Shown here piece by piece: positions 1,632 to 13,642 of a stretch of 23,158 bases of DNA; position 1 is the stretch's first letter, and each line of letters opens with the position of its first letter. Made by a program: the position numbers and the translations under genes. This DNA comes from a virus, in IMG/VR virus record IMGVR_UViG_3300008266_000492, positions 1-23,158 of that record; one strand, given 5' to 3'. Under the pieces are notes generated by a model that saw only the letters and a program-made list of their open reading frames with translations, ran no database searches and was not told the DNA's origin.

Positions 1632-2488
1632 TACGCTTCTCCGCCGTACCAACGGACGTTATCGACTTGCAGATACGTTGTGTTGAGGAAGCCTGTATTT
1701 GCCGCGCCAAGAAAATAACCGTACCACGCACCCCATCCACCGACCTGATCGGCGCGGTAGTTATTTATGTTCGTCTCGTTTATAACCAACGATCCATTTT
1801 TCCAAACGCGAATGATTGAGCGCTCTGAAGCGCTTTGAGCGTGGTAGAAATAAACTTTCACCGACACCCATGTGCCAAGATCGCTGGCGTTTATAAACCC
1901 ATCTGCTGGCGTTCCGCGTTGCGTCTGCCCTAGACCGTCGTCTACTGAATTCCAGTCGCAATACAACCGTGAATACGAACCCTCTGGCAACAGTGAAAGA
2001 CCTAGCTTGCCCGGCTCGTTGTACGTGTCGTTCGGCGACGCTTCTGACCCATTTCCCGGCCATACACGATAAAACTTATTGTTGCTTCCGCCGCTTGTCG
2101 CTGTGCGGTGCGTGTATGCGGCACCGCCCCACGCTTCCGCGCCGTCTGGGATGTAGAGGTCGAATTCGGTTGTCAGGCCGACATACAAAGCACCCAACTC
2201 AAATCGCTGCTCGCCGATGGCATTGGCGGGGTTGTCTGCGTCGGGTGTCCCTGTAAATGTAAACTGCAGCGCGTAACCCGGATTACCTCGCCCTGACTGG
2301 ACGCTTGTGTTTGTTCCAGCCAGCCAGTTAGCGCCGTTCTCAGTGTATGTAAGGTTGCCGGACTCAAAACCGTCAGTAAAAAACGGAGTAGCCCCCACCA
2401 CCACATCCACCCGACACGCGCTAGTATTGCCGAACGAACAGTTCGGGCCTGTCAAAGAGATAATTTTTCTAGTGGCATTAATTGTCAC
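1631..2488 (-). CDS. Lectin/polysaccharide-lyase-fold tail protein, 285 aa
   Basis: The GTG start at 2488 has AAGGA 5 nt upstream and overlaps the TGA of the GT8-like gene (GTGA). The protein has a concanavalin-like (polysaccharide lyase family) signature: FFTDGFESGNLTYTENGANW near residues 36-55, then EQRFELGALY, TEFDLYIPDG and NNKFYRVWPGNG, and a closing strand YLQVDNVRWYGGEA. In phages this fold occurs in virion proteins that bind or cut surface polysaccharide. Whether it is a lyase or only a lectin cannot be told, because no catalytic set is clear. It directly follows the sugar-transfer cassette, which fits a role at the glycan interface between virion and host. Confidence 0.65.
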   Translation of the reverse strand: MTINATRKIISLTGPNCSFGNTSACRVDVVVGATPFFTDGFESGNLTYTENGANWLAGTNTSVQSGRGNPGYALQFTFTGTPDADNPANAIGEQRFELGALYVGLTTEFDLYIPDGAEAWGGAAYTHRTATSGGSNNKFYRVWPGNGSEASPNDTYNEPGKLGLSLLPEGSYSRLYCDWNSVDDGLGQTQRGTPADGFINASDLGTWVSVKVYFYHAQSASERSIIRVWKNGSLVINETNINNYRADQVGGWGAWYGYFLGAANTGFLNTTYLQVDNVRWYGGEA

Positions 2489-3180
2489 GTAAGTCCTTCT
2501 TTGACGTATTTCATTTTACGGAATGCTTTCCACCACGCTTGGGTATAATCCACATCAGAGTAATCCTTGAAGTACGGCCCACCTTCGGTGAAGTGAACAG
2601 CCTTGGCATCATCCCTGTAAGGGTAGTGCCCAACAAGATGATTCCACTCAATAGGCAAAGAGCCAATTTCCTCATCCTTGCACCACTTGAATTGATGCAG
2701 ATCGAGTCCACTGGCTCTGTCTATATACCCTGGAGTAAGCCTGCTGGTTGATTGGTGCTCACAATTGAACAACATCAGACTGGACCAGCACTTCTTTTCG
2801 TATACTGTTTGCTCTGTTCCCAGGTACTTTTTACCTTCCTTGAAGGTATCCGTATTGTGCTTACAGACTTGCACTGCTTTAGTGCTATCTCGCAGGAACC
2901 ACAGTTCCGCAATATCAGTTAAAAACAGGAAGTCGCAATCTACGAATATACCATGCCCTTTGAAATTTTGCAAGTGAGGTACTAGCCAGCGAGTAAAGGA
3001 GAACTCGTTGGATTGCTTGGGATCCTTAGCTCTTGTAAGAGGGAGTTGTGCTTTCTTGAGAGGGGTAATCTGTACGGGTTCAGAGCTGTGCTCAAGGATA
3101 CTGGCAGCACAAGTCCAGAAGGCTCCGGACTCTACTGGATCGTACCCAATGTACACAGGAATCTTGTGGGTTTCCCTCAT
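2485..3180 (-). CDS. GT8-like glycosyltransferase, 231 aa
   Basis: I chose ATG 3180 (product starts MRETHKIPVYIGYDP) because it overlaps the methyltransferase stop as ATGA; an upstream start at 3234 would overlap that gene deeply. The fold is a nucleotide-sugar (GT-A) transferase. An N-terminal strand PVYIGYDPVE is followed by HGIFVDCDFLFL with the DxD metal and sugar-nucleotide motif (D81, D83), then CWSSLMLFNC and the late motif AVHFTEGGPY. These match glycogenin/GT8-like transferases seen in phages and bacteria. It is the last enzyme gene of a four-gene coupled cassette (TPR-GT9, GT4/1-like, methyltransferase, GT8). The acceptor is unknown; host surface sugar, a virion protein or DNA are all possible. 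Confidence 0.8.
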   Translation of the reverse strand: MRETHKIPVYIGYDPVESGAFWTCAASILEHSSEPVQITPLKKAQLPLTRAKDPKQSNEFSFTRWLVPHLQNFKGHGIFVDCDFLFLTDIAELWFLRDSTKAVQVCKHNTDTFKEGKKYLGTEQTVYEKKCWSSLMLFNCEHQSTSRLTPGYIDRASGLDLHQFKWCKDEEIGSLPIEWNHLVGHYPYRDDAKAVHFTEGGPYFKDYSDVDYTQAWWKAFRKMKYVKEGLT

Positions 3181-3647
3181 TTGAATGCTTCCATGCGGAG
3201 ATCTCTTGCGGGTATCTTGAACTGGGCTTGGCACTTCTGGATATCCCTGAATCCTGCCTGTTGTAGCTCGTATGCCAGCGTCTCAGGCGTGTAACCCCAG
3301 TGGTGACAGTGGAACTCATTCTTTAGGTCAGGATTGCCATAGAAGGCCCACATTCCCATTTGATCCCCTGCTCCCATAAGGAATGCATGAGCTGCTTTCT
3401 TCAGATCCGGGCACTCAAGGATAATCTTGCCTCCTGGCTTCAGTACCCTGCGCCACTCTTGCAGCATTCCTTGCACTTCCCACTTGTAGAAGTGCTCGAT
3501 AACATGGATTGCAATGATCTCCTCTACACTGTTGTCCTCTGCGAACTCCAACTTACGCAAATCGCACTTGATATCCGCATTAGGCGCTAAATCCACGCCA
3601 ATGTAACCCTCAAGAGGGCGATTACCTGAGCCTAGATTGAGTTTCAT
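3177..3647 (-). CDS. Class I SAM-dependent methyltransferase, 156 aa
   Basis: ATG 3647 overlaps the upstream TGA (ATGA) and places the glycine-rich motif I at the extreme N terminus: MKLNLGSGNR, residues 1-10. D19 in YIGVDLAP is the expected acidic residue for SAM ribose binding. IAIHVIEHF (residues 46-53) and WRRVLKPGG (65-73) are hallmarks of the UbiE/Methyltransf_11 group. The C terminus has HCHHWGYTPETLAYELQQAG, common in sugar or lipid methyltransferases. At 156 aa it is a minimal catalytic domain with no separate substrate domain. Lying between two glycosyltransferases, it most likely caps or modifies the same glycan. It does not look like a DNA methyltransferase. Confidence 0.85.
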   Translation of the reverse strand: MKLNLGSGNRPLEGYIGVDLAPNADIKCDLRKLEFAEDNSVEEIIAIHVIEHFYKWEVQGMLQEWRRVLKPGGKIILECPDLKKAAHAFLMGAGDQMGMWAFYGNPDLKNEFHCHHWGYTPETLAYELQQAGFRDIQKCQAQFKIPARDLRMEAFK

Positions 3648-4534
3648 GCGAGACTCCCAAAGACTCGTGCCCACTTATCCGCAATTACCTCTGGACTGTA
3701 GTTCTCAGCAATATGCTTTTGGGCCTTTTCTATCTCTAGTCCCCAGTTCCAGCCACGAACTGACTCCATAATCTCGTTAATGGGTCGATCCAAGTACGCA
3801 ATTCCTGCTTTCGGAAGTTCCTGTACACTGGGAATTGAATCCGTCAGAACAACCATCCCGCATTGCAGGGCTTCCAGTACACGATTGGCGCTTTTCGCTG
3901 CTTTTCCCTGCCTATAAGGCAAAACTGCTACCGTATTGCGCTCAGCAAGATCAGGAATTATATCCTTGTGCCAAGGAGTCCATCGAATTTGAGGAGCTTG
4001 GAAGTACGCAGGAGGCTGGACATTACTCGGAAGTACGATTTCTAGTGGGTACGTGCAGTCCTCTGTGTACACATCGTACAAACCATGGATGTTCATGGAT
4101 TGTCCGTACCAGCAAAGACTGGTTGGCATGTCAGGATCGTAGGAAAGTTGAGGAGAAAGGACAGGATCAGGGATAACTATTGCGTCCCGGTTTACTTTTT
4201 CCTTAATAACCTCAGCCATCTCGTAGGAGTTACACGTAATAGTGTCAGCAACATCTGACATCCTACGGTAGTGATCCGACATTTTTCCTTCAAAGTGATC
4301 ATCACAGACATCAAAGATTACTTTTTGTCCACGAAGTTTACAGAACTTAGCGTAACTCCAATCGTTGTACGTCCAGTGCTTACTGAATACAACAACCTCG
4401 GACTCCTTTCGAGCTAGGCTGCTTACACTAGGAATGATGAGATGCTTACCCAGATTCTGGGCAGGAGAGAGGATTCGGTACCGAAAGGAAGCAATATTGT
4501 CATTCCCTGTGGTTACGTAGGATACATTCATCAC
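3644..4534 (-). CDS. Glycosyltransferase, GT-B fold (GT4/GT1-like), 296 aa
   Basis: The start is either GTG 4534 (GTGA overlap with the upstream stop) or the adjacent ATG 4531; I use the first. The short N-terminal Rossmann half begins NVSYVTTGNDNIASFRYRI. The C-terminal half carries the nucleotide-sugar signature: VAVLPYRQGKAAKSANRVLE followed by ALQCGMVVLTDSIPSVQEL, an EX7E-like region that contacts the donor in GT4/GT1 enzymes. The segment VIFDVCDDHFEG is typical of phage and bacterial relatives. At 296 aa it is shorter than the usual 350-400, mostly in the N-terminal acceptor half. It is the second enzyme of the coupled cassette. Confidence 0.8.
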   Translation of the reverse strand: MMNVSYVTTGNDNIASFRYRILSPAQNLGKHLIIPSVSSLARKESEVVVFSKHWTYNDWSYAKFCKLRGQKVIFDVCDDHFEGKMSDHYRRMSDVADTITCNSYEMAEVIKEKVNRDAIVIPDPVLSPQLSYDPDMPTSLCWYGQSMNIHGLYDVYTEDCTYPLEIVLPSNVQPPAYFQAPQIRWTPWHKDIIPDLAERNTVAVLPYRQGKAAKSANRVLEALQCGMVVLTDSIPSVQELPKAGIAYLDRPINEIMESVRGWNWGLEIEKAQKHIAENYSPEVIADKWARVFGSLA

Positions 4535-6039
4535 GGCTTGAACCCTCGGCAGAATTTCTTGAGATCCTTGGCTACTTTACTAATTGGGATATCCCAGTCA
4601 ACGCCTTCATCTTGATGGTACTGGATAACGGAGTTGTAGAAGGGATTCAGTTCATCCTTCTTACCATAACGCCAAGCGTGACCATGCGGTGTCAGAGTCC
4701 ACGTAAGGAGATCCATGGAGCCCCGTACATGCACCATACTGGTGTTCACACAGATGACGAGATCACAGGCCGCAGCGAGTGCCATTGAGTGCTCGTAATC
4801 CTGATCCTCCACAACGTCAGGCCAGTGGTGCAGGTAGATTCCGTGCCTCTTGAGCAACTCTCCAGTCTGTTTCTCTGCTCCGGGCAGGTACTCCAATGAA
4901 ACGAAGGTTGCATCATTTTCGAGTACAGGTACGAGTTTCTCAAGCGGGATGCTTCGCAAGTCCACACGGGTTTTCTTCTTACCTCCAGTCCAGGCTATCC
5001 CGACAATAGGACGCCCAATTTGACCCGTTTCTTCCTGAATGGTACGTACAATTCCTTTGTATTTAGATACAAGCTCAGGATTGGGCTTTAGCCATCCTGA
5101 GTTAACCCGCCTTTGCTGGTGGTACCAACGAGGCAATGATCCCAATCCATCCTTGTAATCCACTCGAATAGTGTCATTCCACTCGGGTGTTTGTTTGGAT
5201 TTACGGGTTGGGAAGATATCGTTAATCTCTGGCAAGGATCGCTGGATAGCGGTGTACAACCGGGGATGCACATCCAGGATTACCCGAGTATTGGGATTAG
5301 CCTTGAGGAACTCAGGAACGAATTGCATGAACAGGAGTTCATCCCCAATACCTTGCTCTCCGTGCAGAACAATCGTCTTATCTGTCAGATCCTCTCCTTT
5401 CCAGAACTTGGCTTCCTTACCACCCTTGTCCTTGTAGGATCGAACAATACGCTCTCCAGTTTGGAATCCTTCTGCGTAGAACTTGAAGCCCTCTTCGTAC
5501 TGCTTGTTCTCGATTAGCAGTAGGCCAAGGTTCCAGTTACCCTGAGGATGGTCAGGACGCAACTCAAGGCACTGCCTGCCATAGGGAATACCCTTAGCTG
5601 GATTACCCTCGTTTACCCAGAGAGCGCACAGGTTAGCCAGTACATCGGGGTGGTACTCCAGCTTCAGAGCTTGCTCAAAGGCTTCTCTGGCCTCTGCATT
5701 GCAGTGCTCATTGCGGTACGCAGCCCCGAGGTTATTGAGCCACTCGATCTTTGGTTTCTTGGAGTTCTGTACGAGGGGTTCTAGGAGATTAATGGCGAGA
5801 CCGTTTCGATTGGTCTGCATGTACAGTGTGGCTAGTTGGTACAGGACTATCTCGTTATGGATGTCCTTGTTGAGGAGTTCGGAGTAAATACTCTCCGAGC
5901 GTTCGACGCATTGAGCGGCTTGATGGGTATCAAAACGACCCTTCTGGGAGGTCATTTGAATAAAGGTCTGGTGGTACTGAGAGGCTTCGGACAATCCTTG
6001 TTTGAATTCTGGATCCATTCCCTGGAGTTCGTCTTGCAC
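4531..6039 (-). CDS. TPR-repeat protein fused to GT9/heptosyltransferase-like domain, 502 aa
   Basis: Residues about 45-200 are tetratricopeptide repeats: LYQLATLYMQTNRNGLAINL, LNNLGAAYRNEHCNAEAREA and GNWNLGLLLIENKQYEEGFK. Residues about 220-475 match the GT9-like domain that follows TPRs in many proteobacterial glycosyltransferases: HGEQGIGDELLFMQFVPEF (226-244), GIAWTGGKKKTRVDLRSIP (347-364) and CDLVICVNTSMVHVRGSM (425-442), then TWTLTPHGHAWRYG. The GTG start at 6039 has GAGG 6 nt upstream. TPR-GT fusions usually modify proteins or surface glycans. In a phage virion operon the target could be a structural protein or host lipopolysaccharide. It is the first and largest gene of the cassette. 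Confidence 0.85.
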   Translation of the reverse strand: MQDELQGMDPEFKQGLSEASQYHQTFIQMTSQKGRFDTHQAAQCVERSESIYSELLNKDIHNEIVLYQLATLYMQTNRNGLAINLLEPLVQNSKKPKIEWLNNLGAAYRNEHCNAEAREAFEQALKLEYHPDVLANLCALWVNEGNPAKGIPYGRQCLELRPDHPQGNWNLGLLLIENKQYEEGFKFYAEGFQTGERIVRSYKDKGGKEAKFWKGEDLTDKTIVLHGEQGIGDELLFMQFVPEFLKANPNTRVILDVHPRLYTAIQRSLPEINDIFPTRKSKQTPEWNDTIRVDYKDGLGSLPRWYHQQRRVNSGWLKPNPELVSKYKGIVRTIQEETGQIGRPIVGIAWTGGKKKTRVDLRSIPLEKLVPVLENDATFVSLEYLPGAEKQTGELLKRHGIYLHHWPDVVEDQDYEHSMALAAACDLVICVNTSMVHVRGSMDLLTWTLTPHGHAWRYGKKDELNPFYNSVIQYHQDEGVDWDIPISKVAKDLKKFCRGFKP

Positions 6040-6443: not shown

Positions 6444-6583
6444 TTCTTGGCTGTCTTGGCGGACTGCTTGAACGCCTTAGCGGTAGGTGCTCCCTTGGAT
6501 CCAGGAAGGCGCATCTTCTCCTTGCTACCCTCTTTGATCCGTTTCCTCTTGGCATGGATGTTAGCGTACAGTCCGGGTTTCAC
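6440..6583 (-). CDS. Small basic conserved phage protein, 47 aa
   Basis: The GTG start at 6583 has GAGGAAG 5 nt upstream and overlaps the previous stop (GTGA). The product begins MKPGLYANIHAKRKRI and contains MRLPGSKGAPTAKAFKQSAK before ending AKK. From memory, this pattern recurs in small proteins of many podovirus and siphovirus late operons of Proteobacteria. Its function is not established. It has 13 Lys and 4 Arg in 47 residues, so it could bind nucleic acid or coat DNA. It sits between another tiny Lys-rich protein and the holin. Short length and GTG start make it easy to miss. Confidence 0.8.
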   Translation of the reverse strand: MKPGLYANIHAKRKRIKEGSKEKMRLPGSKGAPTAKAFKQSAKTAKK

Positions 6584-6711
6584 TTGGACTTCCTCTTCTT
6601 GGGCATCTTGCCTTGCTTCTGGAGAGCAGCGGTAGCAATAGCGTAAGCGGACTCCTTGGACTTCCCAGTCTTCTGGATCTTCTTCCGGAGGTCTTCTAGC
6701 ATCTTGGGCAC
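6580..6711 (-). CDS. Small Lys-rich phage protein, 43 aa
   Basis: The GTG at 6711 is preceded by AAGGAG with 6-nt spacing; ATG 6702 is in frame but has poorer spacing. An in-frame TAA at 6747-6745 limits the frame upstream. The core phrase KTGKSKESAYAIATAALQKQ followed by GKMPKKRK resembles a small protein family I have seen in phages, usually next to the 47-aa partner found here. Function unknown. It is the first gene of the leftward operon, about 200 nt downstream of the proposed promoter at 6918-6946, and its stop overlaps the next GTG. Confidence 0.75.
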   Translation of the reverse strand: MPKMLEDLRKKIQKTGKSKESAYAIATAALQKQGKMPKKRKSK

Positions 6712-6917
6712 TTGGTTCTCCTTGGTGTCTCTGTTCAGTACTGTTTAAACGCTCTAGGAAGCGCTGTAAGCGATTTTCTGGCTATGGGAGCTACAAGGGT
6801 AGCTTGTCTGTTCTGGAATCGATCCTAAGGCTTTCTAGGAAGTTCTTGTATCTGGCGCAATTATCGTGCCAACCCTAACACTTGGTCGCTATCGCTTAAC
6901 GCTCAGAAGGTAGAGTA

Positions 6918-6946
6918 ATTATACCAGTATTGGTATATACAGTCCA
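6918..6946 (-). promoter_or_regulatory. Sigma70-like leftward promoter
   Basis: On the minus strand a perfect -10 box TATAAT (6923-6918) lies exactly 17 nt from TGGACT (6946-6941), a four-of-six match to the -35 consensus. Transcription would start near 6911 and read the leftward operon beginning at 6711, with a leader of about 200 nt. The spacer contains a palindrome (separate entry), suggesting repression by a dimeric regulator. Confidence 0.55.
6921..6936. promoter_or_regulatory. Palindromic operator candidate inside promoter
   Basis: ATACCA (6921-6926) and TGGTAT (6931-6936) form an inverted repeat around GTAT. It overlaps the -10 box and fills most of the -10/-35 spacer of the leftward promoter, so a bound dimer would block RNA polymerase. 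No obvious repressor gene lies in the window. Confidence 0.4.
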
Positions 6947-6963
6947 GATTGGAATACTTTAAA

Positions 6964-6981
6964 ACAAACCCCTTGGTTTGT
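6964..6981. repeat. Inverted repeat ACAAACC/GGTTTGT
   Basis: A 7-bp perfect inverted repeat with CCTT between the arms sits just upstream of the leftward promoter. The inner AAACC/GGTTT half-sites recall the AAACCT/AGGTTT arms of the composite elements at 7089-7105 and 10278-10293, so all three could bind one protein. There is no U-tract on either strand, so a terminator is unlikely. Confidence 0.45.
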
Positions 6982-7010
6982 AACGCTAAGTGAGAATGAA
7001 TCACTGAGTA

Positions 7011-7028
7011 CCATTCAGTCCGGAATGG
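7011..7028. repeat. Inverted repeat CCATTC/GAATGG
   Basis: CCATTC (7011-7016) and GAATGG (7023-7028) are perfect arms around AGTCCG. The interior CAGTCC followed by a GA and TGGAAT block also occurs at 6940-6954, on the upstream side of the leftward promoter, giving a degenerate direct repeat about 76 bp apart. It may be a regulator site. Evidence is pattern only. Confidence 0.3.
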
Positions 7029-7044
7029 AATGGAGGACATTACC

Positions 7045-7086
7045 AGTACTTAGTACTTAGTACTTAGTACTTAGTACTTAGTACAG
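7045..7086. repeat. Tandem heptamer AGTACTT, five perfect copies
   Basis: AGTACTT occurs at 7045, 7052, 7059, 7066 and 7073 without interruption, followed by a sixth variant unit AGTACAG at 7080. Each unit contains the self-complementary hexamer AGTACT. The unit is 7 bp, so successive sites rotate around the helix. Fourteen GTAC tetramers lie between 7045 and 7163. This is too short and without spacers to be a CRISPR. It leads directly into the palindromic element at 7089. Confidence 0.9.
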
Positions 7087-7166
7087 TATAAACCTAGAAG
7101 GTTTAAGTATAGTACTTGTACTGTACTAGTACTTAGTACTGTAAGAGTACTGTACTTAGTACTAAG
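7080..7166. repeat. Composite palindromic element A
   Basis: AGTACAGTA (7080-7088) is followed by TAAACCT (7089-7095), AGA, and the matching arm AGGTTTA (7099-7105), then ATAGTACT. Further AGTACT and GTACTGTAC units follow, ending in the 12-bp perfect palindrome CTTAGTACTAAG (7155-7166). The order of parts (GTAC repeats, AGTACAGTA, AAACCT/AGGTTT palindrome, TAGTACT) is repeated at 10250-10305. Likely a regulator or initiator binding cluster; the role is inference. Confidence 0.75.
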
Positions 7167-7181
7167 AGATACGAAGAGTCA

Positions 7182-7210
7182 TTCAGAACGGATCACTATT
7201 GGATTATAAA
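7182..7210 (+). promoter_or_regulatory. Weak rightward promoter candidate
   Basis: TTCAGA (7182-7187) and TATAAA (7205-7210) are spaced by 17 nt and each match sigma70 consensus at four or five of six bases. The first rightward gene starts at 8045, so the leader would be about 800 nt and would cross the iterons. Overlapping TATAAC and GTATA repeats follow at 7215-7237. This may equally be AT-rich origin DNA. Confidence 0.25.
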
Positions 7211-7414
7211 TAATTATAACCAAGTATAACCGAGTATACGGAGAGGAGAATATATTTCCCGAACAGGAAAATTATTAAGTTTACTTGGGTTTACTGGGAA
7301 TAATGTACCGATCGGGGTGATTGCTAAAAATATTGCAAATTTTGTTGAGGTGAACGACTCGGGTTGTAGAAAACATTGGAGAAATTTTTGAGGTGCAATG
7401 CACTATAGTCCAGC

Positions 7415-7487
7415 CCCCCGCACCCCCGGGGCTACCCACTCGCGCTCGCGCACGCACGCGTGCCCAGGCGCGCCCAGGCGCGCGCTA
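7415..7487. other. GC-rich block with short palindromes
   Basis: This short block is almost only G and C, in sharp contrast to the AT-rich DNA on its left. It contains AGCCCC/GGGGCT arms near 7412-7433, the 10-bp palindrome GCACGCGTGC (7454-7463), and a direct repeat CCCAGGCGCG (7463 and 7473). No U-run follows, so it is not a standard terminator. A strong secondary structure or a strand-switch or pause site next to the iterons is possible. Confidence 0.6.
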
Positions 7488-7497
7488 GTTGCTGCAC

Positions 7498-7555
7498 GAT
7501 CGAGCATGATCGAGACATCTAGCGACATATCGCTGCATGATCGAGACAGATCGAG
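7498..7555. repeat. Four phased GATCGAG iterons flanking an inverted repeat
   Basis: GATCGAG is present at 7498, 7508, 7539 and 7549. Start-to-start distances are 10, 31 and 10 bp, about one, three and one helical turns, so all copies face the same side of DNA. The inner pair share the longer unit GCATGATCGAGACA (7504-7517 and 7535-7548). Between them lies the inverted repeat AGCGA-CATA-TCGCT (7521-7534). This is a strong signature of a multi-subunit protein binding site, such as a replication origin, partition site or early repressor site. Confidence 0.75.
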
Positions 7556-8044
7556 CACTATGCATAATTGCTATAGATGTATGTGATTGGTGCATAACAC
7601 ACTGTAGCACGTTACTACCCCATCAATCAGTGTCAATCGATCGCAACACCTTGATGTGTCAACTAATCCTTACACCATTCACGCCATGAATACCCTCGAG
7701 ATGCGAGTCATTCTCATTAGTGCGCTGAGCATCTACCTGCTAGCCCACTAGCATTCCACCCATTCTGTGCGCTGTGGCGCTTCTGAGAGCGTTTCAGCGG
7801 CATGTACACCTGTACACTGGAGGTTTGTACAGTAGTCCAGGATTTTGGCACACTTGATGCTACGCGCGCACGCACGCATCTCATTTAGTGCAATGGCACG
7901 AGCTGATTGGTTACTTGGACTGTTGAAAAAATATCATATGTTTTCGGGCTTCTGATTTTTGACAAAAGCACTAGAATTCGGGTCGAGCGCAAGGATGCGC
8001 GGGACGGAAACAGGGAAACAGGAAACACAAACGGAGAGCCTGAT

Positions 8045-8251
8045 ATGTGGACTAAAGACGACTGCTTGGCTTTTGCCTCTGATAGTGCTGATTCCGCATT
8101 CGCATATGCTAGCGATTATTCATCCCTGCAAGAGTCAATCGATATCGCGCGCGAGAACATTCGTTGCACGTTGCAGGAATACCGCGCAAGCGAATACGAA
8201 CGCGAAGCTTGGGCTGTTTTCGATTCTCGCGTCGCGAACAAAGGATCTTGA
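8045..8251 (+). CDS. Small acidic early protein, 68 aa
   Basis: ATG 8045 has GGAG 8 nt upstream; the frame extends further 5' but without a start that has a ribosome site. The product starts MWTKDDCLAF and continues as one or two amphipathic helices rich in Ala, Ser, Asp and Glu, with two Cys. It is the first gene of the rightward unit, directly after an A-rich leader with three GGAAACA repeats. Position suggests an early, host-takeover type product. I do not recognise the family. Confidence 0.65.
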   Translation: MWTKDDCLAFASDSADSAFAYASDYSSLQESIDIARENIRCTLQEYRASEYEREAWAVFDSRVANKGS

Positions 8252-8252
8252 T

Positions 8253-8570
8253 ATGTACAGCTACGAAAATTGGATTGAAGACAACAATGCTTGGTTCTCC
8301 CGATCCGACCGTTTTGACGGATTCGACCGGGGGGATATTGTCGATAATGAAGGTGATGCCACACCGGCAAAGCACACAGGAGAACAGACCATGCAGCACG
8401 TAACGCTTGAGCAGCTGTCAGTAGCAGACCGATCCTTTTTGATCCGGTGGTTGTCTTGGAATGACCGCCATGGCGTGTACACGGACGAGGATAGCGCAGC
8501 TGAGGGGTTGCCGCCGATCACGCTCGAAGAAGCACGTGATCTTGTCCGTATTCAATTTGGGGGAGAATGA
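8253..8570 (+). CDS. Hypothetical early protein, 105 aa
   Basis: The start ATG 8253 follows the previous stop by one base, with AAGGA about 7 nt upstream. The protein begins MYSYENWIEDNNAWF and is acidic, rich in Asp and aromatic residues. The second half, from about residue 48 (MQHVTLEQLSVADRSFLIRW), looks like a small helical domain and ends LVRIQFGGE. A second ATG at about 8391 (MQHVT) could give a shorter form, though no clear site supports it. Family unknown. It overlaps the next gene's possible start at ATGA (8567). Confidence 0.6.
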   Translation: MYSYENWIEDNNAWFSRSDRFDGFDRGDIVDNEGDATPAKHTGEQTMQHVTLEQLSVADRSFLIRWLSWNDRHGVYTDEDSAAEGLPPITLEEARDLVRIQFGGE

Positions 8571-8572
8571 TC

Positions 8573-8785
8573 ATGCACCGTACATACGAAGAATCCTATG
8601 CCGCCCACTACCCTAAATTCCAGGAAGCTTACCGCGCTGCGCCGCTCGCGGCTTGCTTAGGTGCCCGCAAAGACATATACGAAACTCTCGTTCACCATTA
8701 CGGTCGCACGCCGTACGAAGCTAAGCTTATGGCAGAGCTCGATGCCGCTCGCGAGCGCATCGCTTGCCTGTCCAAAGGAGTGTGA
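8573..8785 (+). CDS. Hypothetical early protein, 70 aa
   Basis: Two in-frame ATGs are available, 8567 and 8573. I chose 8573 because GGGAG (8561-8565) is 7 nt upstream, while it is too close to 8567. The product (MHRTYEESYAAHYPKFQEAY) is helical and rich in Ala, Tyr and Arg, with two Cys. No membrane segment or known motif is seen. It sits inside a run of tiny, evenly spaced early genes with strong ribosome sites, so high expression is likely. Function unknown. Confidence 0.6.
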   Translation: MHRTYEESYAAHYPKFQEAYRAAPLAACLGARKDIYETLVHHYGRTPYEAKLMAELDAARERIACLSKGV

Positions 8786-8787
8786 TC

Positions 8788-8898
8788 ATGTACGACTCAA
8801 TTATTACTCAGGTCGAGCGTGGCATAGTCTATGCAATGTGCATCGCCTACTCCGTACTCGTGTTCGTAGCATCCGTCAAACTCATCATTGGAGCCTAG
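8788..8898 (+). CDS. Single-span membrane microprotein, 36 aa
   Basis: AAAGGAG lies 7 nt before ATG 8788. The 36-aa product has a short polar N terminus (MYDSIITQVERG), one hydrophobic helix at about residues 13-30 (IVYAMCIAYSVLVFVASV), then KLIIGA. The ribosome site is among the best of the region and the gene fills exactly the space between its neighbours, which supports it being real. Small membrane proteins in early phage regions can disturb host membrane or block superinfection; that is a suggestion only. Confidence 0.6.
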   Translation: MYDSIITQVERGIVYAMCIAYSVLVFVASVKLIIGA

Positions 8899-8901
8899 AC
8901 C

Positions 8902-9279
8902 ATGTACCAGACCGTCAGCTTTAGCATGTTCGTTGATGCGTTCCGCAGTATGGATCGCTATAACCAATTCGCGGCGTACTACTACGAGAATATCCCTGTC
9001 GGAGCATACGATGCTATGCGCGTGCTGTTCGACTATCTGGAGGATTCCGACGACAACATAGAGCTCGACGTGATCGCTCTGTGCTGCGAGTTCTCGCATG
9101 ACACGGCTACGGAGATTGCCAACCAGTACAATATCGACATTTTCGGTGATGCGGACGAGTATGAGGTACGTAACAGCAATCGGGAAGATGAGATCACCGA
9201 CATCGTTCGGGAGTATCTGGAAGATCAGGGTATGCTGATCGGCGAGACTGACTACGGGTTTGTGTATCGTCAGCATTAG
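8902..9279 (+). CDS. Acidic hypothetical protein, 125 aa
   Basis: GGAG is 7-8 nt before ATG 8902. The protein is 125 aa and strongly acidic (long runs of Asp/Glu such as FDYLEDSDDNIELD), with several Tyr, ending GFVYRQH. It appears all-helical with a few strands and no cysteine motif beyond one CC pair. Highly acidic small phage proteins often mimic DNA or bind host nucleoid or RNA polymerase proteins, but nothing here identifies a target. It is followed by a 74-nt gap before the GP88-family gene. Confidence 0.65.
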   Translation: MYQTVSFSMFVDAFRSMDRYNQFAAYYYENIPVGAYDAMRVLFDYLEDSDDNIELDVIALCCEFSHDTATEIANQYNIDIFGDADEYEVRNSNREDEITDIVREYLEDQGMLIGETDYGFVYRQH

Positions 9280-9353
9280 TGGTATGCAACAGTGTGAGCA
9301 TTCTCGCAAGTGCTCACCATGGTGCAATCCGCATCAAACTCGGAGCTTATGCC

Positions 9354-10061
9354 ATGAGATACCTTGCCATCGGGAACAATGCTAAGACCATCAAATCAGA
9401 CAAGGGTGGGGAGTGGCTTACTGCCATCCTGTATCTCGCTCCGGCCGATACTGTCGAAGGTATCAACGTGTGCCCAATGGCAGAATTGGCAGGGTGCAAG
9501 GAAGCTTGCCTGTACACTGCGGGGCGTGGCGCATTTAACAATGTGCAGCAGGCCAGGATTTCCAAGACAATCGCATTTCGTGATGATCGGGATCAATTCA
9601 TGCGGGATATTGCGGCCGATATCCTGACTGCCAATCGGAAGGCACACAAGCTTGGCGTGCGCCTTGCTGTTAGATTGAATGGTACTTCTGACATTGCATG
9701 GGAGAATATCCCGGTCGCCAATACGGGCGGGAACTACCAGAACATAATGGCAATGTTTCCTGACGTACAGTTTTATGACTACACGAAGCTTCCCGGGCGG
9801 AAGACGCCCACGAATTACCATTTGACGGTCTCGTATTCGGGCGCGAATCCTAAATATGCCGCCAAGGTCCACCGTAGCGGGCACAATGTGGCGGTTGTGT
9901 TCGCATCGGATCGGCCCGCTCGTTTCATCGGTCGGCCTACATTGGATGGGGACGCGAACGATCTACGATTCTTGGACTCTCCTGGTCACGTAGTGGCGTT
10001 GACTGCTAAAGGCAAGGCAAAGCGGGATCGTACAGGATTTGTGGTGCGGAATGTAGCGTGA
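9354..10061 (+). CDS. GP88-family phage protein, 235 aa
   Basis: I place the start at ATG 9354 (GGAG 8 nt upstream; conserved opening MRYLAIGNNAKTIKSDKGGE), not at a start 75 nt upstream. The sequence matches the phage 'gene product 88' family as I know it: an N-terminal cysteine cluster INVCPMAELAGCKEACLYTAG (C40, C48, C52), then QQARISKTIAFRDDRDQFMR, VRLNGTSDIAWEN (107-119) and QFYDYTKLPGR (139-149). The function of the family is not established. Three closely spaced Cys and a conserved YDYTK could bind a metal or Fe-S cluster and suggest an enzyme. It is the largest early gene, followed by a hairpin without U-tract. Confidence 0.8.
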   Translation: MRYLAIGNNAKTIKSDKGGEWLTAILYLAPADTVEGINVCPMAELAGCKEACLYTAGRGAFNNVQQARISKTIAFRDDRDQFMRDIAADILTANRKAHKLGVRLAVRLNGTSDIAWENIPVANTGGNYQNIMAMFPDVQFYDYTKLPGRKTPTNYHLTVSYSGANPKYAAKVHRSGHNVAVVFASDRPARFIGRPTLDGDANDLRFLDSPGHVVALTAKGKAKRDRTGFVVRNVA

Positions 10062-10070
10062 ATGGGGGCG

Positions 10071-10092
10071 AGCCTGCCACGGATGGCGGGCT
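10071..10092. terminator. Hairpin after GP88 gene, possible weak terminator
   Basis: AGCCTGCC (10071-10078) pairs with GGCGGGCT (10085-10092) through eight pairs including one G-T wobble, with loop ACGGAT, 10 nt after the stop. It is GC-rich but followed by TGATGATAGC, not a U-run. It may act as a factor-dependent terminator or mRNA-protecting hairpin before the promoter-like region that follows. Confidence 0.35.
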
Positions 10093-10249
10093 TGATGATA
10101 GCTTCGCACTAGGTTGGGTGAATGCGCTCGATACCAGTTACTAGGTGCTCCGCTACCATGAAACAGGGAGCGTGTCAAACCCTCTATTGTGTGCATTAGT
10201 TGGCACTAGTAGGGGTGGATATGCTCAGGATGTAGAGTATTTTTACTCA

Positions 10250-10317
10250 CTAGTACTAGTACTAGTAAGTACAGTACTAAACCTTAAGGTTTATTTAATA
10301 GTACTAGTGCTAGTACT
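10250..10317. repeat. Composite palindromic element B
   Basis: CTAGTA is repeated three times (10250-10267), then AGTACAG (10268-10274), then the perfect 16-bp palindrome TAAACCTTAAGGTTTA (10278-10293), then TTTA and ATAGTACT (10298-10305) and another TAGTACT at 10311-10317. The part order equals element A at 7045-7118: GTAC-type tandem repeats, AGTACAGTA, AAACCT/AGGTTT arms, TAGTACT. The arm sequences are identical and the centre differs (AGA in A, TA in B). Two matching copies 3.2 kb apart argue for a shared trans-acting factor. Confidence 0.8.
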
Positions 10318-10328
10318 GAGGAGATCGA

Positions 10329-10520
10329 ATGCGAATGCTGTTCACGAACGAGGGCGAAGGCACACAAAGCAGGGTAGTGGCTCTACGATCCCGGCCGGGG
10401 TGGTACGCCGTGACACTCATGGACCTGGATTCTGGGGAGGTGCTGCCGTACGCTCGTCACGTTGACAATCTGGAAGTAGCAATTAAACTTGCCCGTGAGT
10501 GGGCTAACTTGGGAGAATGA
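10329..10520 (+). CDS. Hypothetical small protein, 63 aa
   Basis: GAGGAG lies 5 nt before ATG 10329. The 63-aa product begins MRMLFTNEGEG and has a strand-rich middle (RPGWYAVTLMDLDSGEVLPY) followed by an amphipathic helix ending REWANLGE. This looks like a small beta-beta-alpha domain. It is the first gene after element B and may be directly controlled by it. Family unknown. Confidence 0.65.
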   Translation: MRMLFTNEGEGTQSRVVALRSRPGWYAVTLMDLDSGEVLPYARHVDNLEVAIKLAREWANLGE

Positions 10521-10805: not shown

Positions 10806-11012
10806 ATGGAAACCGTGACAAGATTCGCAATCCAGGCTTACGATCCTCTGGAACCGCACTTTTGGTTCCTGCTGTCCAGCACGCACGAAACGATCAAGGA
10901 TGCGGAAGACAAAATCCGTTCTTTTGAAAGATGGGAAGAGGCTAACCCCATCCCCAATTTGAGGAAGATGGATCACAGGATCCTCCCATTCACAATCGAG
11001 GTGCCAGTATGA
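10806..11012 (+). CDS. Hypothetical protein, 68 aa
   Basis: ATG 10806 has GGAG 7 nt upstream; an in-frame upstream extension to 10734 is a shadow of the previous gene. The product is 68 aa, begins METVTRFAIQAYDPLEPHFW and looks like a compact alpha/beta domain with a middle helix (THETIKDAEDKIRSFERWEE). It ends in a strand, FTIEVPV. Overlap of its stop with the next ATG is ATGA-type. Family not recognised. Confidence 0.6.
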   Translation: METVTRFAIQAYDPLEPHFWFLLSSTHETIKDAEDKIRSFERWEEANPIPNLRKMDHRILPFTIEVPV

Positions 11013-11229: not shown

Positions 11230-11316
11230 ATGAACGGAAATGATGTGGTGATGTTCGTTTGCCTAATCGGTTTGATCGGGTTCTGCATGTGGTACGACCA
11301 GGAGCGCTGGCCTTGA
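11230..11316 (+). CDS. Membrane microprotein, 28 aa
   Basis: ATG 11230 opens a 28-aa frame: a short N terminus (MNGNDVV), one hydrophobic helix at about 8-20 (MFVCLIGLIGFCM) and the polar tail WYDQERWP. The ribosome site is modest (GAGGG, 10 nt away), but it starts 2 nt after the preceding stop and its own stop overlaps the next start in TTGA, which fits the gene-packing rule of the region. This is the second single-span microprotein here (see 8788). Confidence 0.45.
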   Translation: MNGNDVVMFVCLIGLIGFCMWYDQERWP

Positions 11317-11567
11317 GGTGCCGTGCCTGTAACAGGAAGATGGAAGTCCTGCGGTCCAAGCATGGCGGCTTTGAGGATCTGTGCTATATGTGCCGCAGTT
11401 ATGTGGCACGAGACATGCGTGCCAAGATGTACGGGAAGGATGAAGAATCCGTGAGTCAGGAGCAGATCCTTGTGGACATAGAGCCGAAGGATGTTGATGA
11501 TAGCTGGCTTGTGCCTGATCGTAACAGCGAATGGGGAAGCATACTGGAGGGAATGAGTGATGATTGA
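11313..11567 (+). CDS. Zinc-ribbon protein with TTG start, 84 aa
   Basis: I propose TTG 11313 as start. AGGAG is 8 nt upstream, it overlaps the previous stop (TTGA), and it places a zinc ribbon at the N terminus: MRCRACNRKM, C3 and C6, then LCYMC, C24 and C27. An earlier in-frame TTG (11259) would overlap the 28-aa gene fully. The rest is acidic and probably unfolded or helical. Such small zinc ribbons are common in phage early genes and in proteins binding nucleic acid or RNA polymerase. Target unknown. Confidence 0.65.
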   Translation: MRCRACNRKMEVLRSKHGGFEDLCYMCRSYVARDMRAKMYGKDEESVSQEQILVDIEPKDVDDSWLVPDRNSEWGSILEGMSDD

Positions 11568-11753: not shown

Positions 11754-13421
11754 ATGAAAATCAGGTGCCCAAAGTGTGCCGAGGAAGGGAGGGATCAGCG
11801 TGGAACTAATGCAACCACGTACCCGGACGGCAGAACATTCTGCCATGCTGGTCATGGTATAGTGTCCGGCCAGCAAACAGAGGTGACACGGATGGAAAGC
11901 AAGATAAGCGTACAGGATTGTCTGTCAGAACCTGCGGGCCATGATCCTGAGCGTAAAATCAGTGACGAGATCGTCCAGAAGTACGGCATACGTTGCGTGT
12001 ACGACACGTCTACAGGAAAAGCCAAGCGCACCTATTACCCGTACGCTGATCGAGACGGAAAGGTTACCGGCTTCAAGGTGAGGAACATTCAGAGTAAAGA
12101 GTTCTTTATCGCAGGAAAACTCAATGGCCTGTGGGGTAAACAGGCTGCACACAAGACACCGCACGGTGCGTTAATCATTACAGAAGGAGAGGAAGATGCG
12201 CTCGCTATCGCAGAGATGTTACGGAATAGTCCTGGGGCTGTGCATGACGTTGTTTCTGTACCTCATGGCGCTAACAGTGACGGCAGGGTTGATGCAAGCG
12301 TTCAAGCCGACATTGATTTCATCCGTAGATACGCCAAAGTCTACCTGTGCTTGGACAACGACGAACCGGGAAGGGCGACGGCAAAAAAGCTGGCAGGATG
12401 GTTATCCGGTTTCGTGCCCGATGTACGCCTAGTCGAGGTTCCAAACAAGGATGCCTCTGCCTGCCTGATGGGAGGGCACAAGGCTGAGTTCGCAGCAGCA
12501 GTGAAGAGTACGCCGCAGTTCCGGCCAGAGGGAATTGTGCATGGCTCAGAGATTAGCATTCAGGATCTCATGCGCTCAGTACCTGAAGGATTCAGCACTC
12601 CCTATCCCGGACTGAACGACAAGTTGCATGGTGTACGCAAAGGAGAGATCCTTACTGTATGCGCTGGCTCAGGCATTGGTAAGAGCACACTGGTGAAGGA
12701 GATAGGCTACGATCTGGTAGTGCGTCATGGCCTGAAGGTGTGCCACATCGCACTAGAGGATGTCGTAGAGGCTACCGCAGCCAGCTATATCGCAATGGAC
12801 AACAACGTACCATCCTCTCGATTCCGTACCGATCCGGGTTGTATCCCTATGCGTCTTGTTGAGGCGAGTATGGATCGTACAGTGCGGAAGATGTACTTCT
12901 TCAATCACTTCGGATCAATTGATTCGTCCACATTCAAGGAGAAGCTGTTCTACTATGCTCGCAGTGGCGTGGACTTCATTATCTTGGATCACCTGAGCAT
13001 GGTTATCTCTGGGTCTGATGTACAGAATGAGCGCAAGGAGATAGACAAGATCATGACTGACCTCGCACAGATGGTAGTGTCCACTGGCGTTGGCCTGATC
13101 AACGTAGTGCATCTCAAGCGCAGAGAATCCAGGGATGCAGGCAAATCCCTGAACGAGGGAGGCGCTGTTAGCCTTACGGATCTCCGAGGATCTGCTGCGC
13201 TGGAGCAACTGAGCTGGGGAGTATTGGCAATGGAGCGCAACCAGCAGGCAGAGGATGGCAGCGAGGACTTTGTATCCCTGCGCGTACTGAAGAACAGAAC
13301 GTGGGGATTCACTGGCTCCTGCGGTAGGGCCAAGTACGTGCATTCCTCCGGGCGTATGCTTCCAGTGGATGATGAACTGCCAGTACCCGATCCTCAATCG
13401 CTCGATGAGGTGTACGCATGA
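11754..13421 (+). CDS. T7-gp4-like primase-helicase, 555 aa
   Basis: Residues 1-40 form a zinc-binding primase domain: C5, C8, C30 and, instead of a final Cys pair partner, a His in FCHAGHG (H34 or H31). T7 gp4 uses four Cys. The TOPRIM domain shows IITEGEEDALA (141-151) and LCLDNDEPGR (198-207), with E144, D201 and D203 as metal ligands. The RecA-like helicase half has Walker A AGSGIGKST (304-312), a Walker B-like FIILDHLSM (408-416), and NVVHLKRR (450-457). It unwinds DNA and primes lagging-strand synthesis, working with the polymerase two genes on. AAGGTG lies 7 nt before the ATG. Length is close to T7 gp4 (566 aa). Confidence 0.95.
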   Translation: MKIRCPKCAEEGRDQRGTNATTYPDGRTFCHAGHGIVSGQQTEVTRMESKISVQDCLSEPAGHDPERKISDEIVQKYGIRCVYDTSTGKAKRTYYPYADRDGKVTGFKVRNIQSKEFFIAGKLNGLWGKQAAHKTPHGALIITEGEEDALAIAEMLRNSPGAVHDVVSVPHGANSDGRVDASVQADIDFIRRYAKVYLCLDNDEPGRATAKKLAGWLSGFVPDVRLVEVPNKDASACLMGGHKAEFAAAVKSTPQFRPEGIVHGSEISIQDLMRSVPEGFSTPYPGLNDKLHGVRKGEILTVCAGSGIGKSTLVKEIGYDLVVRHGLKVCHIALEDVVEATAASYIAMDNNVPSSRFRTDPGCIPMRLVEASMDRTVRKMYFFNHFGSIDSSTFKEKLFYYARSGVDFIILDHLSMVISGSDVQNERKEIDKIMTDLAQMVVSTGVGLINVVHLKRRESRDAGKSLNEGGAVSLTDLRGSAALEQLSWGVLAMERNQQAEDGSEDFVSLRVLKNRTWGFTGSCGRAKYVHSSGRMLPVDDELPVPDPQSLDEVYA

Positions 13422-13642
13422 AGCAGGAAGACGTTGATAAGCTATGGTACAAAGCCATGTCGCAGGCCATGCAGCAAGGAGAATTGTATACGCGGTACAA
13501 GTTCGCTGAGTTGATTGCCGCAGAAGAGCGCGAGGCGTGTGCGCTGGTCTGTGAGCAGGTCACTGCTGCGTGGTCAGAGATGGAGTACAACGAGGGTTGT
13601 ATGGACTGCTCCAAAGCCATCCGCGCAAGGGGTGACGCATGA
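13418..13642 (+). CDS. Small phage protein between helicase and polymerase, 74 aa
   Basis: The start overlaps the helicase stop (ATGA) and the stop overlaps the polymerase ATG (ATGA), so all three are translationally linked. The 74-aa product is mostly helical. The stretch AAEEREACALVCEQVTAAW carries a phrase (REACA-x-x-CE) that I know from many small phage proteins near replication genes, usually of unknown role. Cys positions (C41, C45, C61, C64) could bind zinc or be a disulfide pair. Confidence 0.7.
   Translation: MKQEDVDKLWYKAMSQAMQQGELYTRYKFAELIAAEEREACALVCEQVTAAWSEMEYNEGCMDCSKAIRARGDA

Follow-up and report, generated by a model that had tools for sequence, protein, structure and literature searches.

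Paired arrays of GTAC units around palindromic cores in a phage of Zobellviridae type

Several kinds of described system come closest to a pair of sequence elements, designated E1 and E2, that we analysed in a 23,158-base record of a virus of bacteria (IMG/VR record IMGVR_UViG_3300008266_000492; this entire stretch is referred to as the window). Iteron-type replication origins consist of short-repeat arrays with palindromes in AT-rich DNA, and E1 and E2 resemble them in this respect; however, the units of E1 and E2 are overlapping short dyads with an irregular spacing of 5-13 bp that differs between relatives, and no recognised initiator gene lies beside them. Multi-site phage operators and enhancers are similar to E1 and E2 in that dyads recur next to promoter-like stretches where control is exerted, here at two points; no repressor or activator gene was recognised, however, and E2 lies 3.2 kb away from E1 and adjoins a ribosome-binding site. 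The replication promoters of T7 occupy two sites, one near the right end of the genome and one inside the left end, a layout that E1 and E2 share. A promoter set of T7 type would, however, come with a phage RNA polymerase and many promoter copies, whereas no T7-type RNA polymerase was detected in the clade of the window phage and there are two copies per 47-kb record.

Passages of a study on Zobellviridae state that these phages have no RNA polymerase and that their transcription must be regulated differently, and invoke the sigma-factor changes of phiEco32 in that context (PMC9960094). A second study locates the terminal repeats of cobaviruses, whose G+C-rich 5' end is conserved, between the two gene arms, and describes SIO1 as being without RNA polymerase (PMC6775973). 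E1 and E2 matter for how podophages of the Zobellviridae, which have no such enzyme, set the timing of their two arms. We tentatively favour the reading that they are arrays recognised, as DNA, by a single DNA-binding protein that the phage encodes, probably an oligomer, and that would coordinate both arms; within this reading, a transcription switch is the most likely function.

By terminase and portal homology, the window phage is of Zobellviridae type. Its terminase was 64% identical to that of GX1-k141_326647 (GX1) and 61% to that of ICP2, both Zobellviridae; its portal was 58% identical to that of GX1, 56% to those of PA11 and CW02, and 55% to that of ICP2. The right arm of the window encodes a primase-helicase, a family A DNA polymerase, an exonuclease, endonuclease VII and ribonucleotide reductase, which are T7-like replication genes. 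The same phage was found as a 47,129-base contig (G001; 99.86% identity to the window over 22,041 bases), in which two opposed gene arms are present; GX1, VpV262, RIO-1, ICBM1, CW02, PA11 and ICP2 likewise have two-arm genomes with an inter-arm gap. A megablast search of the entire window against 50,697 phages gave zero matches. Relatives were retrieved by protein, and their polymerases were 78-83% identical to that of the window.

Composition, copy number and conservation of E1 and E2

Each element is an array of GTAC units around a core with TAAACC/GGTTTA arms (Table 1). The sequence AGTACAGTA occurred exactly twice in the window (7080 and 10268), 12 of the 13 occurrences of TAGTACT fell inside E1 or E2, and AGTACTT was found eight times, seven of them inside E1. 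Blastn with E1 recovered E2 on the minus strand (E = 9.6e-6), and a profile built on E1 detected E2 in the window with E = 7.5e-9. Relative to the core centre, a GTAC unit was placed 15-18 bp to the left in all 10 copies compared and 15-16 bp to the right in nine of them. The AGTA that precedes the E1 core extends it to AGTATAAACC, which was invariant across the five aligned E1 copies. A 7-bp AGTACTT tandem was confined to the window phage, and its relatives showed mixed spacings of 5-13 bp. The sequence-only reading of the window had located both elements and named their parts in the correct order; its positions held, and its ends fell short of the true extents, which reach about 7166 for E1 and about 10318 for E2.

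The densest 120-nt stretch contained 14 GTAC, compared with a maximum of eight in 200 genomes simulated with an order-3 Markov model, and the core, expected at most about 0.005 times per window, was observed twice. E1 and E2 are thus related arrays, far beyond chance. GTAC was mildly over-represented across G001 (415 observed, 348 expected), which also has looser GTAC clusters elsewhere, with up to six units and no core. With the E1 profile, both 47-kb records (G001 and G002) showed two copies and none beyond these. Because the E1 and E2 profiles contain the window's own sequence, only the E1-E2 cross-match and the absences are independent results. Such absences were obtained with nhmmer in ICP2, PA11, CW02, GX1, T2S1 and the mid-distance relatives L125-L129, L270 and L272, a search that left out RIO-1, VpV262 and ICBM1; two of these contigs, L125 and L129, seem to stop short of the E1 gap, as they gave no left-arm protein match.

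Pattern scans gave a similar distribution. The complete scan of viral contigs for a core plus TAGTACT, which replaced an earlier and less strict one with at least 119 stretches, returned 23 stretches; five or more GTAC around the core occurred only in contigs of the clade, and the remaining stretches had one to three each. The pattern is narrow and misses some clade copies, such as E2 of L068. A looser search of the loci for the core found, outside the clade, only L082, L092 and L200, each with four GTAC, and a distant blastn search of the region gave a weak match within a gene of a Mesorhizobium phage (two records). As far as these scans reach, the arrays are clade-specific. The letters TAGTACTAGTACTA were not found in any paper of an openly licensed literature set, and a literature search limited to openly licensed papers found no description of such an element.

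The same pattern, applied to 84,980 bacterial and archaeal species with one genome each, gave four isolated matches with a single GTAC apiece. This bears on the possibility that the phage has borrowed, in the arrays, the binding sites of a regulator that its host encodes. Such a regulator would account for the missing phage binder (see below), and a host factor had been allowed for by the sequence-only reading; the near-absence from these genomes makes it very improbable, bearing in mind that the scan required a core and a nearby unit, which puts host sites made of GTAC alone outside its reach. Of the earlier proposal that one factor, from phage or host, binds both elements, the single factor stands as the simplest explanation, and because the scan gave no more than these four matches a phage-encoded factor is likelier than a host-encoded one.

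Five contigs fetched by protein reached the site of E1 (G001, the same phage, and G002-G005, with G003 and G004 identical in their elements), and E1 was in place in all of them; E2 was in place in all six that reached its site, the five above and L070, which starts past the place of E1. A further contig, L239, ends short of the place of E2; its left-arm protein was 89% identical. It had been located through the core pattern, so its E1 is not independent evidence of presence, and it was omitted from the E1 count and used in the alignments. Identity to the window over ungapped columns was 83-89% for E1 (four relatives, 19-33 gap columns) and 85-90% for E2 (four relatives, 5-13 gap columns), whereas fourfold-degenerate sites of helicase plus polymerase were 40-51% identical in the four relatives holding both elements. 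Judged from these alignments, E1 and E2 are under strong purifying selection. Outside the element islands and the terminus motif described below, the window aligned poorly with its relatives. Between E1 and E2, the proteins encoded at 8045, 8567 and 9354 had no match at their place in relatives and that at 8253 had a 13-residue match; a 125-aa early protein (8902-9279), which belongs to a PHROG of unknown function, was kept in all five searched relatives reaching its place. With the neighbours of the 8902 gene replaced and the positions of E1 and E2 fixed, the elements have persisted while most of the intervening genes turned over. The sequence-only reading had staked its proposal on relatives not having unrelated sequence at the two positions, and both copies proved to be kept in place in those close relatives whose contigs extend to them.

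Table 1. Coordinates of E1, E2 and neighbouring features (window positions unless another record is named)
Feature	Position	Strand	Description
E1 array	7045..7166	.	14 GTAC units (AGTACT, TAGTACT, CTAGTACT) around core; conserved island
E1 core	7089..7105	.	TAAACC-n5-GGTTTA = TAAACCTAGAAGGTTTA; 6-bp arms, 5-nt spacer
E2 array	10248..10318	.	6 GTAC units around second core
E2 core	10278..10293	.	TAAACCTTAAGGTTTA; perfect 16-bp palindrome, 4-nt spacer
Framing dyad left of E1	7012..7027	.	CATTCAGTCCGGAATG; identical in aligned relatives
Framing partial copy right of E1	7180..7196	.	CATTCAGAACGGATCAC
Third, weaker copy of framing dyad	6936..6951	.	TATACAGTCCAGATTG
Hairpin-like sequence	6962..6981	.	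AAACAAACC-n4-GGTTTGT; conserved; AAACC/GGTTT arms as in the cores
Predicted leftward promoter	6918..6946	-	TGGACT-17-TATAAT with extended -10 (TGnTATAAT)
Probable first small gene of left (late) arm	6580..6711	-	43 aa
Predicted terminus / start of direct terminal repeat	7380..7427	+	cut expected after about 7398, then C tracts
Block directly left of E2	10216..10248	+	TGGAT...AGAGTATTTTTA; kept in 5/5; promoter-like and/or small hairpin, by eye
Small gene immediately downstream of E2	10329..10520	+	63 aa; heads the run to primase-helicase and DNA polymerase
Terminus motif in L252	41275		
Terminus motif in L253	6014		
Terminus motif in L251	42788		
Terminus motif in L274	43745		
Terminus motif in L278	336	-	
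Terminus motif in L249	62	-	

Predicted genome terminus and its relation to the arrays

The 27-nt stretch at 7326-7352 matched T2S1-k141_477764 exactly in the distant blastn search, beside the place of a motif in that phage, and this match led to the motif itself. Members of the clade share the motif, which reads AGAAATTTTTGAGGTGnAATGCAC and continues into C tracts; T2S1 and CW02 have it with five mismatches. When six mismatches were allowed, a 22-nt version of it matched the inter-arm gap of RIO-1, PA11, CVT22, ICP2 and GX1; in 384E50-1 the match lay between the arms but inside an annotated frame, as in CW02. Chance matches also arise at six mismatches, namely in MEP401 and at a second place in RIO-1, both within genes. 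Searched alone by distant blastn, the motif hit 79 records, and the 20 listed were Klebsiella phages with chance-level E-values, which we discarded.

RIO-1, VpV262 and ICBM1 have annotated terminal repeats in the inter-arm gap. The repeat of RIO-1 begins inside the motif (GAGGTGCTA then TGCACCCC), that of VpV262 directly after AGAAATATTCGAGGTGTGT, and that of ICBM1 after a weaker version, AGTAAATATTTTTGTGT; the last two were recognised by eye, the automatic search having missed them. Because the motif coincides with annotated repeat starts and the cobavirus study independently puts the repeats in the inter-arm gap (PMC6775973), the terminus of the window phage is predicted at about 7398. The motif could also help to locate, from sequence, the genome ends of metagenomic Zobellviridae.

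With the terminus there, E1 sits on its late-arm side, so that E1 is not in the rightward arm, where the sequence-only reading had wrongly put it. E2 lies about 2.9 kb from the predicted terminus on the opposite side, so that the linear DNA of a virion would carry one element close to each end. From the end of the E1 core to the predicted cut, the distance was 116-125 bp in four relatives and 293 bp in the window, which alone of five aligned sequences has an extra stretch of about 170 bp; the 27-nt T2S1 match falls within this stretch and constitutes a second, half terminus motif, with the complete copy about 50 nt to its right.

A large palindrome by the right repeat could mean that E1 is part of the terminus machinery, either for duplicating the terminal repeat or for terminase recognition, with E2 a separate co-opted copy. 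The near-constant distance to the cut in four of five sequences is consistent with this, as are the dyads within 600 nt of the terminus on its late side, which exceeded all 40 simulations in five of 10 phages (the window phage, VpV262, GX1, PA11 and ICP2). The other five (ICBM1, RIO-1, CW02, T2S1 and CVT22) showed no such excess, the window departs from the distance, and E2 is left unexplained, so we consider this role quite unlikely. Among the gaps of other phages, that of GX1 is similar in having GTACTAAGTACTTA and a GGTTAC..GTAAC palindrome between the terminus motif and the late arm; in the gaps of GX1, ICP2, PA11 and CW02, however, AGTACT is outside the five most enriched palindromes.

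The position of E1 beside the predicted terminus also fits the main rival explanation, namely that both arrays are replication origins bound by an initiator, with E1 close to the right end of the genome and E2 about 2.9 kb inside the left one. T7 has one right-end and one left-side replication origin, roughly matching these places. A repeat array with palindromes within AT-rich DNA (39% GC at 6751-7250, the stretch holding E1) is what an origin would show, and no phage RNA polymerase that could prime T7-style origins was detected in the clade. The cumulative GC-skew minimum lay 1.4 kb from the E1 core in G001, 0.7 kb in G002, 0.6 kb in G005 and 2.2 kb in G004; this skew is, however, wholly confounded with gene direction, and in the fragment G003 the minimum was at the contig end. 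The irregular unit spacing, the lack of a recognised initiator gene and the contact of E2 with a ribosome-binding site, which suggests gene control, also count against origins. We regard origins as possible but doubtful. A more specific version, in which the arrays are matched origins (or serve as origin and switch combined) for a new initiator that the phage encodes and that belongs to no known family, is speculative and rather unlikely; such origins would replace the RNA-polymerase-primed ones of T7 in a lineage with no detectable phage RNA polymerase or sigma factor.

Promoter-like sequences, predicted transcripts and a proposed switch

The arrays, as recognition sites for a phage-encoded protein, would work as follows. 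The protein would occupy the GTAC units found about 16 bp to either side of the TAAACC/GGTTTA core. Its place of action at E1 would be upstream of the late arm's predicted leftward promoter, which has an extended -10; at E2, it would act in the interval from the promoter-like block to the ribosome-binding site that precedes the replication genes. Bound there, it might repress or activate, and so coordinate the two arms. A leftward extended -10 was present between E1 and the left arm in all five sequences, 171-216 nt from the core, and the conserved hairpin-like sequence of the same region sits about 110 nt left of it. The right end of E2 adjoins the ribosome-binding site of the next gene, and 33-36 nt separate the end of its core from the start codon in five of five compared sequences. 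The block to the left of E2 could be a promoter, judging from its letters; a consensus promoter scan called none in it, and its possible hairpin (GAGTA-TTTT-TACTC) is disrupted in L068.

Several observations weigh against such a switch. The extended -10 of the window does not align with that of the other four sequences, and the TGGACT hexamer, although conserved, is 17 nt from the -10 in the window only. Promoter-like sites in the region numbered eight, which is within chance (5.0, standard deviation 2.2). The core spacer ranged from 3 to 5 nt among copies, unusual for a rigid dimer site, which is a mild argument. No DNA-binding Pfam domain scored above cut-off in any of the 20 right-arm proteins scanned, structure models of two conserved early proteins had no significant match to a known structure, and a divergent sigma factor could have been overlooked in the clade (both described below).

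The contact of E2 with the ribosome-binding site raises another explanation, in which E2 hairpins in the 5' untranslated region govern translation or RNase III processing and E1 does likewise in a leftward or read-through transcript. All ten copies folded better than shuffled sequence (z of -1.9 to -4.1), which is a common outcome for arrays of overlapping palindromes, and in L070 a GCAC unit stands opposite GTGC in the right-hand hairpin, as judged by eye. The long E2 hairpin was nevertheless the minimum-energy fold in two of five sequences, the other three giving three local hairpins; RNAalifold on five E2 sequences, a comparison of low power, found a two-sided change in none of 30 pairs and an unfavourable covariation term; and the four Rfam matches, all in E1, were to microRNA models far below cut-off. 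Moreover, with E1 upstream of the predicted leftward promoter, no predicted transcript of its arm would include it, and this speaks for action on DNA rather than on RNA. We therefore consider an RNA element improbable. For a switch or an origin alike, the paired sites at the end of the late arm and before the replication genes pinpoint the DNA with which a regulator or initiator could be caught.

Candidate binding proteins and neighbouring genes

Searches of the right-arm proteins against Pfam and PHROGs revealed no regulator, and these scans showed no recognised initiator gene beside the arrays. The early protein at 11259-11567 had a sub-threshold zinc-ribbon match (15.4 bits; cut-off 25.3). 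Members of the clade retain it, and it can still be recognised in L125 and L129; its start codon is uncertain because the matched stretch has a stop in L067 and L070; we consider it a weak candidate for a nucleic-acid binder. The 63-aa protein encoded next to E2 has a predicted beta4-alpha fold and belongs to no known family. Its structure model and that of a 72-aa protein at 11009, modelled as a guess at the binder, were fairly confident and had no significant match in PDB.

The T7-type RNA polymerase domain (PF00940) was absent from all four clade records searched (G001, G002, G003 and G009), with P-SSP7 positive as a control. Sigma region 2 was absent from all six clade records searched, of which three are fragments shorter than 24 kb. 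The sigma search was positive for PA11, CW02 and CVT22 and missed RIO-1, whose record annotates a putative sigma factor; a divergent sigma factor could for this reason be overlooked in the clade. The records of ICP2, VpV262, ICBM1, GX1 and MEP401 annotate no sigma factor in the helicase-polymerase interval either, so the clade is not alone in this lack. If the arms are separately controlled, the failure to detect an RNA polymerase or sigma factor means that another factor is needed. A 74-aa protein (13418-13642) lies between helicase and polymerase in the window and matched no family above cut-off; at the equivalent place a sigma factor is annotated in PA11, CW02, CVT22, 384E50-1 and RIO-1, and not in the five others viewed.

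A search for tRNA genes found none. In the left arm, the first gene of L067 and L072 is longer than the probable 43-aa one of the window. Judged by their translations, reading frames within 2485-6039 (minus strand) resemble glycosyltransferases and a methyltransferase; the sole match of the one searched, at 4531-6039 (minus strand), was a PHROG of unknown function. Beyond the terminus motif in CW02 (L252, 41699-42176) and T2S1 (L253, 6436-6865), each early leader has three spaced GCTCTTTAACAAT-like sequences, some of them near TTGACA-like hexamers, which we take to resemble the boxA antitermination signal of ribosomal RNA operons.

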